The notes below the pieces were generated by a model, which saw nothing but the letters and a program-made list of their open reading frames with translations, searched no databases and was not told the origin of the DNA. Below, one piece after another: positions 59,431-63,495 of a stretch of 64,000 nucleotides of DNA. The position numbers and the translations under genes were made by a program. Numbering within the stretch: the stretch's first letter is position 1; each line of letters begins with the position of its first letter. This DNA comes from Candidatus Gastranaerophilales bacterium (lineage in GTDB: Bacteria > Cyanobacteriota > Vampirovibrionia > Gastranaerophilales > Gastranaerophilaceae): the NCBI GenBank assembly GCA_944323035.1, contig CALUQY010000002.1, forward strand, positions 1 through 64,000, read 5' to 3'.

Positions 59431-61203
59431 CTATTTGACAGATTGTGCAGCATTTACTGTAAGCGGCAGGGTAAAACCGAATGTTGACCCCGCACCTACG
59501 GTAGAAGATACAAAAACTTTTCCGCCGTGGTGTTTTTCAATCGTAGTTTTAACAAGCTGCAAGCCTAAACCCGTACCTTTAATTGTATGGGTAGCGTTTT
59601 CAACTCGGTAAAACCTGTCAAACAGCCGTTTCAGATGTTCAGGTGCAATTCCGCAGCCCTGATCCGTAACGCTGACTTTTACATTATCTCCTTCGCGTTC
59701 AATTTTCACGGTAATCGTAGTATTTTCCGGTGAATATTTTATCGCGTTTGAAAGAAGATTTATAAGCGCACGCTCAATACTGTTGTAGTTAAACATAAAA
59801 TTCGGGAACTCGCCTTCTTTTTGAATAACGAGTTTTATCTTACTCTTTTCCAGCAGAATTTGAACCTGCTTAACAGCTGATTCAACGAGTTCAACGATAT
59901 TATTCGGAAGTTTTTCAAGCTCATAATCCGATTCAAGCCGCGAAAAATCAAGAATATCATTTACCATAGTATTCAAACGGATTATCTCATCATTAATGGT
60001 GCCCATAAACTCTTTCTGCGTTGCTTTGTCAAATTCATCCCCGTAATTATAAAGCGTATCAATATAACTTCTTAAAACCGTCACAGGTGTTCTCAATTCG
60101 TGCGAAACATTGGAGATAAATTGGGAGCGCATAAGATCAATTTCGGTTTCTTTTGTTATATCAATCAAAACAATAATGTAACCCAGATAATCACGATTAC
60201 GCGTAAACATCGGCGAAACAATCGCTTTAATAGTGCGCTTGTCTACCTGAATATTAAAAACAGTCGGCGCTTTTTCGCGTTCTTCAAGCGGCAGGGCTTT
60301 AAATTCTTCTATCTTTTCGCGGAAACAGAAATTTCCCTCCGTATCAATATAATCCTGAATACGGCTGTCCATAATCTGCTCGTTATCAAGTTCAAGAAGA
60401 TCCTGCGCGTGCTTGTTTACAAGAACAACTTTATCGTTGTTATCGCAGACAACAACCCCGTTTGCGATACTCAAAAGCACAGCTTCAAACTTGTTTCTCT
60501 CAAGAGTTAATTGTTCAATATTTTCTTCACCGTAGGCGTGAAGCTTTGCGGACATATCGTTAAACGCATTGAAAAGTTCTCGAACCTCACGGCTGACCTC
60601 CTGATCGCCTATAGTGTAGCCGAATTCACCTGTTGAAATCTTATGAACACCGTCTTTAAGCGTACGGATTTCGCGCGTTGTCAGATAGGTGCTTATTAAA
60701 ATTACAGACGCAAAAACCAGCCAAGCAAGGGCAAAAACAGAAAATATTGCCAATCTTATAGTAGAACTTGTTTTATCAAGAACATTTGCACTAAAAACGA
60801 CCGTCAGAGAGCCGTCCGTTTTTAAAACACCGTTTTGGTAGTATTTACGCGGGGTTACAACGGTAAAAGTTTTGCCGGAACGCGGCTTGATTTCCGGATT
60901 TTCCTCATTTACAACGACCTTTCCGTCAGCATTTATGTATTTCACCGCCAGAATATTGTCACTGCCCTTGATAACGGTCTGCAAAAAGTTTTTTAATTCT
61001 CCGGCGCGCATGTTATTTCTAACATCCACCGAGGAATCGGCGATTGTCTGCGCAATTATTTCGCTGTAATTCTGATAACTGTCTTTAAGATTATCCTGAA
61101 TATTAAAGGTCGCAAAAATCCCGATACCTACAATCAGAAAAGTGCTGGACAAAAGCCCCGCAATAATGAGCTTATTCTGTTTTGTAATGCTCCTGTCTTC
61201 CAT
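59431..61203 (-). CDS. Membrane histidine kinase (WalK/PhoR-like)
   Basis: 590 residues: helices at about 12-34 and 150-173 flank an extracytoplasmic sensor domain; then HAMP (about 175-225), PAS (about 235-350) and the kinase core. Phosphorylated His368 is in SHELRTP; the N box (NLLSNAIKYSP), DQGCGIAPEHL and GTGLGLQLVK follow. This HAMP-PAS-kinase order is seen in WalK and PhoR. No response regulator gene is adjacent, so it is an orphan in this window. Upstream on the same strand lies the tandem small-peptide locus. Confidence 0.93.
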   Translation of the reverse strand: MEDRSITKQNKLIIAGLLSSTFLIVGIGIFATFNIQDNLKDSYQNYSEIIAQTIADSSVDVRNNMRAGELKNFLQTVIKGSDNILAVKYINADGKVVVNEENPEIKPRSGKTFTVVTPRKYYQNGVLKTDGSLTVVFSANVLDKTSSTIRLAIFSVFALAWLVFASVILISTYLTTREIRTLKDGVHKISTGEFGYTIGDQEVSREVRELFNAFNDMSAKLHAYGEENIEQLTLERNKFEAVLLSIANGVVVCDNNDKVVLVNKHAQDLLELDNEQIMDSRIQDYIDTEGNFCFREKIEEFKALPLEEREKAPTVFNIQVDKRTIKAIVSPMFTRNRDYLGYIIVLIDITKETEIDLMRSQFISNVSHELRTPVTVLRSYIDTLYNYGDEFDKATQKEFMGTINDEIIRLNTMVNDILDFSRLESDYELEKLPNNIVELVESAVKQVQILLEKSKIKLVIQKEGEFPNFMFNYNSIERALINLLSNAIKYSPENTTITVKIEREGDNVKVSVTDQGCGIAPEHLKRLFDRFYRVENATHTIKGTGLGLQLVKTTIEKHHGGKVFVSSTVGAGSTFGFTLPLTVNAAQSVK

Positions 61204-61278
61204 AACTAAATTATAGCATTAAAGTTTTTTAATTCAATGCGTCGAGAAAAGCCGCAAATCTATTTATTTTATCTACAC

Positions 61279-61393
61279 TTGAAAAAGTTTTGAAATATGT
61301 TATAATAAAAATGTCGGGGCGGTAGCGCTAACTACCGTAACCTGTAAATGAAATCGAAGTGACGTCTATCCTTTCGGGTAGGCGTTACTTTTT
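61279..61393 (+). ncRNA. Antisense RNA 1 (probable type I antitoxin)
   Basis: TTGAAA (61279-61284), 16 nt, TATAAT (61301-61306) predict a start near 61313. The RNA has a 5' hairpin CGGTAG-CGCTAA-CTACCG (61320-61337) and ends in a 15-bp terminator hairpin with stems at 61357-61371 and 61376-61390, then TTT. Length about 80 nt. The terminator half is complementary to the end of the peptide 1 gene, and the 5' hairpin to the mRNA beyond its stop. No reading frame with a ribosome binding site. Confidence 0.72.
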
Positions 61394-61446
61394 ATTATGT
61401 ATAAAATCAAAAAAACTATTATTAATGTTAAATTGATATTTTCCAT
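61366..61446 (-). CDS. Small hydrophobic peptide 1 (probable type I toxin)
   Basis: 26 codons starting MENINLTLIIVFLILYIIK and ending SNAYPKG. The ATG (61446-61444) is eight bases after AAGGGGG. One membrane helix fills residues 6-18, and a Lys and polar tail follow, as in type I toxin peptides. The second half of the gene is antisense to the plus-strand RNA that starts near 61313. The only upstream promoter-like element is TTGACA at 61552-61547 without a good -10. Paralogous to peptide 2. Not a named family to my knowledge. Confidence 0.72.
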   Translation of the reverse strand: MENINLTLIIVFLILYIIKSNAYPKG

Positions 61447-61585
61447 AAGCGACCCCCTTTCTTTCAGAACTATCGACCGAAATCGAAGTAATAACTGTTG
61501 TGTCGATGTTCGTTAGAAATACAGGCTTAGCCCCTTAATATTTTCATGTCAATGTTCTAAGAAACGAGATTGACTCCCTATCCAC

Positions 61586-61700
61586 TTGAAAAAGTTTTGA
61601 AATATGTTATAATAAAAATATCGGGGCGGTAGCGCTAACTACCGTAACCTGTATAAGACTAAGGCGGCTCTTATCTGTTTAGATAGGTGCCGTTTTTTAT
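61586..61700 (+). ncRNA. Antisense RNA 2 (probable type I antitoxin)
   Basis: The same promoter (TTGAAA 61586-61591, TATAAT 61608-61613), hairpin (61627-61644) and layout as RNA 1. The terminator hairpin differs: stems near 61663-61676 and 61681-61694, then TTTTTT. It is complementary to the end of peptide 2. Stem mismatches between RNA 1 and RNA 2 mean each should act mainly on its own mRNA at that end. Confidence 0.72.
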
Positions 61701-61751
61701 TATGAATATAATCAAAAATATCATTATTAATGTTAAATTGACATTGTCCAT
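61671..61751 (-). CDS. Small hydrophobic peptide 2 (probable type I toxin)
   Basis: 26 codons starting MDNVNLTLIMIFLIIFIIK and ending NGTYLNR. The ATG (61751-61749) has a near-perfect AAGGAGGG ribosome binding site eight bases upstream. The plan is the same as peptide 1: NVNLTLI, a long aliphatic helix, then IIK and a polar tail. Only the tail differs between the two, exactly in the segment shared with the antisense RNA. It lies downstream of ilvB (stop 61867) on the same strand, from which it might also be reached by readthrough. Confidence 0.74.
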   Translation of the reverse strand: MDNVNLTLIMIFLIIFIIKNGTYLNR

Positions 61752-61866
61752 AAATTTAGCCCTCCTTTCGTTAAAACTATCAGTTCTTAGACTAAAGTAT
61801 GTTGTTCTGATGTTTTTTTAAAAAGATACAGGCTTAGCCCCTTAATATTTTATTGTCAAATTACGG

Positions 61867-63495
61867 TTACACAACTTCCATGGGTTCGATTATAAAATCA
61901 ATCAAAAAAGGAGCATTTGACGCAAAACATTTTTCAAGTGCAGCAGGAATTTCTTCTATTTTTTCAACGCGCAGGGCATCAATCCCGTACGCCTTTGCCA
62001 GACCGACAAAATCAGGATTTTGAATTCGGGTCTGAGCGTAACGTTTTTCACACATTTTTTCCTGCAATTGGCGAACCATACCGAGATAACCGTTATTTAA
62101 AACAAGAATTTTCACAGGCAGACCGTATTGAGCGCAGGTCGCAAGTTCCTGAATATTCATCTGCAAACTTCCGTCACCTGTCACACAAATTACAGGTGCA
62201 CCGTTCTGTGCAATGCTTGCGCCGATTGCAGCAGGAAAGCCAAACCCCATTGTGCCAAGCCCGCCGGAGGTTATAAACTGCCCCGGACGATTAAACTTGT
62301 AGCCTTTCGCGCACCAGAGCTGGTGCTGGCCTACTTCTGTCGCAACCGTTAAACTTTTATTTTTCGTGTAATCGTAAAGCGCGTCAATCACCTGATAAGA
62401 GTGTAGTTTTTCGGATTTTTTCGCCGGAAGTTTATTGCGCGCCTTCAAAACCTGAGCTTCCTGCGCCCAATCAGTGAAATCTTTTGAAACTTTTGACAAT
62501 AATCCGCCCAAAATTTCTTTAATATCGCCTTTCACACCCATTCGGGCATTAAAAATGCGGAAAATTTCATAATCATTTATATCAATCTGGATTAAATTCC
62601 GCTCCAGTTCACCGTTCGGGAAACAGCAGCTTATGCGGTCATTAAAACGCGCACCGAGCGAAATTATCAAATCACTTTTGCGCAAAATCTGATTGGCGCT
62701 ATAGGAGCCAAAAAGTCCTATCATACCGAAATAAAGCGGACTGCTTTGCGGGAAAGTGCCAAGCCCCATCATAGTTGAAACGACCGGAATACTTAGACCG
62801 CAGGCAAGCGAAGCAAGTTCATGCGCCGCGTTAGAGTGCAAAACCCCGCCGCCTGCAACGATTACAGGGCGTTCAGAATCATTCAGAAGAGATAAAATCC
62901 GCGGAATTTTATCAAGATCAGATCTCACATCAAAGGAAGGAAGTTTTAACCCGTCAAATTCTGTGGTTTCAGTAAAAATATTCTTTGCAAGGTCAACAAC
63001 AACAGGGCCTTTTTTACCGGAAAGCGCTTTGTAAAAAGCGTCTATAAGCGTTTTTTCCAAATCTCTTACATCAGTCACCTGATAAGTTTCTTTTGTGCAG
63101 GGGCGTGCGATATCAACGATATTCACTTCCTGAAACGCATCTTTGCCGATTAAATCTTTAGAAACCTGTCCGGTCAAAACAACCAGCGGGTATCCGTCCA
63201 GATATGCGTTAGCAAGTCCGGTCACTATATTTGTAGCCCCCGGGCCGGAAGTTACAAGTACAACGCCGGGTTTTTGCCCGCCGTTGGCTCTTGAATAGCC
63301 TTCCGCGGCGTGGACACATGCCTGTTCATGCCGGCAGAGAATGTGTTTGATATCGGAATCCGTAAAAAGCTCATCATAAACTTTAAGTACAATTCCGCCG
63401 GGGTAGCCGAAAATAGTATCTACTCCAAGATTTTTTAATGTTGCGGTGACAATTTGCGCACCGGTTAAATTTTGAGTTGTTGATTGCATTACCAT
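61867..63495 (-). CDS. ilvB: Acetolactate synthase large subunit
   Basis: 542 residues, a thiamine diphosphate enzyme of valine/isoleucine synthesis. The ThDP Glu is Glu57 (RHEQACVHAAEGYSRANG); GDGSLQMNIQELATC and LNNGYLGMVRQ hold the metal-binding motif. Length is typical. No ilvN regulatory subunit or other ilv gene is in the window, so it may work with a distant subunit or be a catabolic form. Two ATGs are close together (63495, 63489); neither has a good ribosome binding site. Confidence 0.93.
   Translation of the reverse strand: MVMQSTTQNLTGAQIVTATLKNLGVDTIFGYPGGIVLKVYDELFTDSDIKHILCRHEQACVHAAEGYSRANGGQKPGVVLVTSGPGATNIVTGLANAYLDGYPLVVLTGQVSKDLIGKDAFQEVNIVDIARPCTKETYQVTDVRDLEKTLIDAFYKALSGKKGPVVVDLAKNIFTETTEFDGLKLPSFDVRSDLDKIPRILSLLNDSERPVIVAGGGVLHSNAAHELASLACGLSIPVVSTMMGLGTFPQSSPLYFGMIGLFGSYSANQILRKSDLIISLGARFNDRISCCFPNGELERNLIQIDINDYEIFRIFNARMGVKGDIKEILGGLLSKVSKDFTDWAQEAQVLKARNKLPAKKSEKLHSYQVIDALYDYTKNKSLTVATEVGQHQLWCAKGYKFNRPGQFITSGGLGTMGFGFPAAIGASIAQNGAPVICVTGDGSLQMNIQELATCAQYGLPVKILVLNNGYLGMVRQLQEKMCEKRYAQTRIQNPDFVGLAKAYGIDALRVEKIEEIPAALEKCFASNAPFLIDFIIEPMEVV

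Follow-up and report, generated by a model that had tools for sequence, protein, structure and literature searches.

What occupies the 663 nt (61204-61866) that separate ilvB (61867-63495) from the co-directional sensor histidine kinase gene (59431-61203) in a 64-kb stretch of a Candidatus Gastranaerophilales genome, referred to here as the window? The intergenic gap holds a tandem array of two units with a repeat length of ~307 nt (Table 1), each of which is most probably a chromosomal type I toxin-antitoxin module. A first-pass annotation of this DNA had proposed such a plan, describing a 663-nt gap in which the minus strand has two hydrophobic ORFs of 26 codons, each preceded by a strong Shine-Dalgarno sequence and each faced on the plus strand by a TTGAAA-16-TATAAT promoter and an antisense RNA whose terminator hairpin is built from the last toxin codons. 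We find the gap and all of these elements, in both units, where they had been placed, and the tests reported here support the plan at the level of sequence, with expression, toxicity and neutralization remaining inferences. The annotation had also named the antisense-overlap region as the diverging part of the duplicated units, and this holds, because the linker/terminator block is 79% identical between copies 1 and 2 while the antisense promoter and 5' hairpin are 96% identical.

Table 1. Features of the two-unit array and their positions in the window
Feature	Coordinates	Strand	Remarks
Insertion between ilvB and sensor histidine kinase	61204..61866	.	Only ~32 bp here in four congeners
Antisense RNA promoter, copy 1	61279..61306	+	TTGAAA-16-TATAAT; conserved across units
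Predicted antitoxin RNA, copy 1	61313..61396	+	Ends inferred; 5' hairpin 61315-61344, single-stranded linker, terminator hairpin 61356-61391 and U run
3' clamp, copy 1	61316..61346	-	TACAGG-hairpin-CCCC; pairs with mRNA 5' end on both hairpin sides
DRb, 3'-UTR copy, copy 1	61350..61360	-	ACTTCGATTTC; complement is the antisense linker
Toxin ORF, copy 1	61366..61446	-	26 aa, MENINLTLIIVFLILYIIKSNAYPKG; ORF, codon constraint
Shine-Dalgarno region, copy 1	61453..61461	-	GAAAGGGGG
5'-UTR stem-loop, copy 1	61472..61507	-	ATCGAC/GTCGAT arms; displays DRb (fold)
DRb, 5'-UTR copy, copy 1	61479..61489	-	ACTTCGATTTC; in loop of 5' stem-loop
5' end clamp arm, copy 1	61519..61534	-	GGGGCTAAGCCTGTAT; inferred toxin mRNA start
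Candidate toxin -10 element, copy 1	61540..61545	-	GAAAAT; weak
Antisense RNA promoter, copy 2	61586..61613	+	TTGAAA-16-TATAAT; conserved across units
Predicted antitoxin RNA, copy 2	61620..61700	+	Ends inferred; 5' hairpin 61622-61651, linker, terminator hairpin ~61661-61696
3' clamp, copy 2	61623..61654	-	ATACAGG-hairpin-CCCC
DRb, 3'-UTR copy, copy 2	61653..61663	-	CTTAGTCTTAT
Toxin ORF, copy 2	61671..61751	-	26 aa, MDNVNLTLIMIFLIIFIIKNGTYLNR; ORF
Shine-Dalgarno region, copy 2	61761..61769	-	GAAAGGAGG
5'-UTR stem-loop, copy 2	61779..61811	-	ATCAG/CTGAT arms
DRb, 5'-UTR copy, copy 2	61787..61796	-	TTTAGTCTAA
5' end clamp arm, copy 2	61826..61841	-	GGGGCTAAGCCTGTAT
Candidate toxin -10 element, copy 2	61847..61852	-	TAAAAT

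The two peptides belong to a family without a name, as the annotation had supposed. Neither has a match in Pfam or NCBIfam at E values up to 1, no named family in PHROGs, PADLOC or the PDB matches the 26-aa peptide, and the sole Rfam match, to SurA, was dismissed as chance level (9.9 bits against a gathering score of 100). Copy 1 has DNA-level matches in 26 of 59 relatives, and a peptide profile built from 16 peptides and searched against 383 genomes of the order Gastranaerophilales matches 150 of them, in 28 of 52 genera. In a phylum-wide sample none of the matches listed lies outside the order, and all but one of the genomes belong to one family; named records among the family matches are mostly Candidatus Gastranaerophilales. 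From the fetched loci 108 units were extracted, and the peptide is exactly 26 aa long in 101 of these, with an ATG and a strong Shine-Dalgarno sequence in nearly all. Over codons 2-17, a region mostly outside the antisense RNA overlap, dN/dS is 0.33 in frame compared with 0.79 and 4.8 in the other two frames, and the second codon position is nearly fixed (entropy 0.18, against 0.85 at the third). This estimate is conservative, because constraint from RNA structure on synonymous sites would raise dN/dS. Loss of the frame in related genomes, or absence of codon-level constraint, would have counted against the first-pass reading; the frame is kept across the order and the constraint is present. 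AT-rich DNA often contains short hydrophobic ORFs and promoter-like sites, so that these could be chance ORFs in intergenic sequence near chance promoters, although the breadth of the profile matches, the fixed architecture and the covariation described below leave this reading with next to no credit. Copies of the peptide frame at G192:C13:20268-20345 and G087:C28:2239-2304 contain an in-frame stop and are probably decaying.

Both antisense promoters in the window match the sigma-70 consensus at 11 of 12 positions and have an extended -10 element, and these are the only two occurrences in the 64 kb of the promoter with its following GGG. A promoter matching at 10/12 or better is present in 97 of the 100 units with enough flank (95 at 11/12 and two at 10/12), compared with six of 100 shuffled flanks (two at 11/12 and four at 10/12), and the -10 element ends a median of 60 nt past the toxin stop. 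Among the three apparent failures, the site in L107 exists with a 15-nt spacer, and copy 4 of L076 (L076 1402, the fourth unit of its array) has truly lost its own antisense promoter. The antisense RNAs, whose transcription and ends are inferred, have predicted folds with z scores of -5.9 (copy 1) and -4.0 (copy 2) relative to shuffled sequence, and the terminator stem covaries across units while coding for the K-N-G-S tail of the peptide.

The antisense RNA and the toxin mRNA are further connected by a direct repeat, DRb, which lies ~30 nt upstream of the AUG, ahead of the Shine-Dalgarno sequence, and recurs right past the stop codon, which makes both sites complementary to the antisense linker. 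In both RNAs the repeat is less paired than its surroundings. Predicted duplexes between 5' UTR and linker have mean energies of -17.6 kcal/mol for cognate and -11.2 kcal/mol for non-cognate pairs (z -13.8; control z -1.5), and exact shared words of at least 8 nt are found in 71% of cognate but only 5% of non-cognate comparisons. Averaged over six tandem arrays, cognate pairings reach -17.2 and cross pairings -9.6 (p ~1e-6, with units treated as independent). In the window, the 5' UTR of copy 1 scores -17.5 with its own linker (-20.2 with a slightly longer stretch) and -8.6 with that of copy 2, and the 5' UTR of copy 2 scores -11.2 with its own linker and -4.4 with that of copy 1. By these comparisons the two sites of the repeat change together within a locus, whereas tandem copies have come to differ in it and are thereby insulated, and the modelled energies suggest that each antisense RNA recognizes only its own partner. 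In the L076 array, the 5'-UTR repeat of copy 4, whose antisense promoter is lost, matches instead the linker belonging to copy 1 (-20.4), which suggests protection in trans by the copy 1 antisense RNA, albeit as no more than an anecdote.

Transcribed from what appear to be weak promoters, the toxin mRNA is predicted to close upon itself. Its 5' end (GGGG..CCTGTAT in the window; CAGGGTAAAAGAUACUCU and similar elsewhere) is complementary, in the alignment of units, to the sequences on either side of its 3' hairpin. For 45 non-redundant units this clamp pairs on average at -15.5 kcal/mol with the cognate and -11.7 kcal/mol with non-cognate partners (permutation z -11), and nothing is seen in a wrong-strand control (z -0.5); an ungapped score gives 19.0 for cognate pairs against 12.6 +/- 0.5, with 40 distinct arms among the 45 units. 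In an alignment of 36 mRNAs the pairing holds in 94.8% of cells, and compensatory changes are present at 16 of the 30 base pairs. The covariation score is 0.300, compared with 0.168 for shuffled and no more than 0.072 for slid versions, over which the structure is favoured by having been derived from the alignment tested. All structures are predictions, and the permutation tests ignore relatedness. Alignment column 103, the base 1-2 nt before the A of the AUG, covaries with codon 18 at its first base, which determines an Ile/Leu choice (AU in 17, UA in 11), from which we infer that codons 16-18 probably hold the start codon in the modelled fold. A local hairpin covers the Shine-Dalgarno sequence in 61 of 87 units. 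The toxin mRNA has no canonical terminator that we could find, and the clamp and a weak U run lead us to infer a 3' end further downstream, at the antisense promoter. By analogy with aapA, trimming of the 3' end was expected to free the Shine-Dalgarno sequence, and the in silico model gave no such release; trimming may not be the activating step, because the sequence is about equally paired in the full-length (0.69) and 3'-trimmed (0.77) mRNA.

Such strong RNA structure and covariation, in a position between co-directional genes, could also mean that the RNA pair is itself the conserved product, acting in trans or as antisense on genes such as ilvB or the kinase, and that the ORF is incidental. 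We regard this as very improbable in view of the codon-level constraint outside the antisense overlap and the invariant 26-codon length with its Shine-Dalgarno sequence; moreover, among the fetched loci, ilvB and the kinase adjoin units only in the window species and one congener.

For the toxin-antitoxin module, sequence and covariation bear out its components, the closure of the mRNA, a repeat that covaries and the insulation of tandem copies, and the following scheme, in which transcription and transcript ends are inferences, can be proposed. A weak promoter would yield an mRNA for a 26-residue, single-helix membrane peptide, and the complete mRNA would shut, its 5' end pairing with both sides of the 3' hairpin and its start codon held by codons 16-18. 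A constitutive, strongly promoted antisense RNA would start just past the inferred mRNA 3' end and stop at the terminator formed by the last toxin codons, making it fully complementary to the 3' region of the mRNA, with its single-stranded linker also matching the loop in the 5' UTR ~30 nt before the start codon by way of the direct repeat. Once opened, for example by 3' trimming, itself an inference, the mRNA would be bound at both the 5'-UTR loop and the 3' end and either blocked or cut as a duplex; RNase III is encoded in the genome and is available for cutting, although its role is likewise inferred. Should antisense transcription fail, surviving mRNA would be translated and the peptide, whose toxicity is inferred, would damage the membrane. 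Tandem copies with different repeats would be insulated from one another.

Measured against the marks of known type I systems, the units have the generic short hydrophobic peptide with a Shine-Dalgarno sequence and coding constraint, and an antisense RNA with its own promoter and complementarity to the toxin mRNA, the latter judged from sequence only, with transcription inferred. The long-distance 5'-3' closure typical of hok and aapA is met as a covarying prediction; of the marks of Fst/Ldr systems, direct repeats common to the 5' UTR and antisense region are present, and a shared bidirectional terminator is not found in the window units. The annotation had likened the units to txpA/RatA and bsrG/SR4. 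The tail-to-tail 3' overlap with the mRNA of a small hydrophobic toxin (~75 nt in txpA/RatA and ~120 nt in bsrG/SR4 of Bacillus subtilis; PMC4147584) bears this out, but the analogy is incomplete: our units add a covarying closure like that of hok/aapA and a 5'-UTR direct repeat like that of par(pAD1), both absent from the annotation, those toxins are longer (TxpA has 59 aa) and unrelated, with no Pfam or NCBIfam match here, and RatA lacks any stretch complementary to the initiation region (PMC4147584), unlike the linker described here, which matches the 5' UTR. In par(pAD1) Fst/RNA II (PMC7472228), as in our units, the toxin mRNA and a short antisense RNA are convergent, repeats of the DRa/DRb type in the 5' UTR and antisense region offer a further place to pair, at the site of translation initiation or ahead of it, and the repeats of paralogues diverge such that there is no cross-regulation. 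The window peptides nevertheless lack the PXXXG motif and a Pfam Fst match, antisense termination takes place within the last codons of the ORF, by prediction, and not at a shared bidirectional terminator, and the 5'-3' mRNA clamp is an additional element. The predicted end-to-end closure of the full-length mRNA is shared with Helicobacter aapA/IsoA and with hok/sok (PMC6733600), and the metastable hairpins of aapA3 resemble the local Shine-Dalgarno hairpin; unlike those systems, our peptide is unrelated (no sequence match in Pfam, NCBIfam, PHROGs or the PDB), the antisense RNA covers the 3' end of the mRNA and not its 5' region, and the model does not clearly free the Shine-Dalgarno sequence on 3' trimming. 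What is new is the regulatory plan, in which closure of the mRNA, as in hok/aapA, is joined to recognition through direct repeats, as in par(pAD1).

Before 2025 type I systems had been reported only from Proteobacteria, Firmicutes and Tenericutes, and msoT1/msoA1 of Microcystis was then proposed as the first of the phylum Cyanobacteria (PMC12390103). It too has an antisense RNA over the toxin 3' end, although its protein is predicted to have two membrane helices, it comes from a different class of the phylum, and neither a direct repeat nor a clamp is described there (PMC12390103). It is the only case from the phylum that we found in the open literature, in which nothing was found on type I systems in Melainabacteria or Gastranaerophilales; subscription literature was outside our scope and prior description is not excluded.

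In the four congeners with a spacing of ~32 bp between ilvB and the kinase gene, the TATAAT of the kinase lies within that spacer, and by this comparison the window locus is an insertion at a junction closed in those genomes. A leader peptide or attenuator of the kinase was rejected, because the neighbours of the units are not conserved and the kinase retains its own TATAAT in congeners without a unit. The single unit of the nearest congener consists of the promoter side of copy 2 fused to the copy 1 body, the product expected if tandem repeats had recombined. There is no support for an origin in phages or plasmids, because no relatives were found by peptide search in viral contigs, plasmids and phages, or by DNA search in plasmids and phages. 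As read from its sequence, the ilvB-kinase junction of the nearest congener (L241 2100-3000) contains, besides its one unit, an ORF for a ParD-like antitoxin and two for DNA-binding proteins, one of helix-turn-helix and one of LuxR type, and it is possible that the junction there is an insertion hot spot.

The same antisense promoter and 3' module adjoin several other families of short hydrophobic peptide, including SEKAL..LLIIxALK (22-24 aa, with four tandem copies in L032, 724-1713), xRELIKRxL..LIxLI (24 aa), ..VIGHILL..ASLL (27-29 aa), VNEFLFLI..KELFLILIIIALK (33-34 aa) and further types. A hydrophobic ORF preceded by a Shine-Dalgarno sequence is found at 115 of 151 ends of this chassis, compared with 72 of 2000 random positions, which again speaks against chance ORFs, although the former count is inflated because the loci were partly gathered through these same peptides. 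The 5'-3' clamp is cognate-specific in the chassis with other peptides as well (z -5.8; controls +1.8 and +1.3). PHROGs gave only two weak matches, both to one chassis peptide of another family.

This variety bears on a further alternative, that the product is a regulated but non-toxic small membrane peptide, such as a modulator of stress responses or membrane proteins, under the same antisense RNA logic. The locus is chromosomal, accessory and multi-copy, and RNA logic alone is no proof of a poison; yet several unrelated hydrophobic peptides on one chassis sit poorly with one specific function, and tight multi-layer silencing, tandem arrays with insulated antitoxins and insertion at an otherwise closed junction fit toxins better, so that we consider a harmless peptide unlikely, although not negligible. 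On the toxin reading, we lean towards the view that one modular chassis of the Gastranaerophilaceae, comprising a 5'-3' clamped mRNA with a 3' hairpin and a tail that both overlap the antisense promoter, bears at least six small hydrophobic peptides unrelated in sequence in swappable, tandem and mutually insulated form. If this is true, it constitutes a large type I superfamily in a class of the cyanobacterial phylum for which we found none described.

The 26-aa family is itself widespread and unannotated in a gut-dwelling class of this phylum, and its more than 100 natural variants make the evolution of private antitoxins in tandem copies directly testable, with the covarying repeat predicting the mRNA that each antisense RNA silences. 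Toxin codons, the antisense terminator and the predicted helix that sequesters the start codon are overlaid in a clear case of dense overlapping constraint, and the antisense-promoter signature offers a practical handle on small toxins missed by gene finders. Pattern and profile searches of the window's own genome (G000) gave further chassis loci at C1:34.2k, C2:114.9k, C4:39.5k, C9:36.2k, C9:37.0k and C10:24.8k (L146, L154, L149, L025, L156), of which that at C9:37.0k belongs to the same 26-aa family and the others carry unrelated short hydrophobic peptides.
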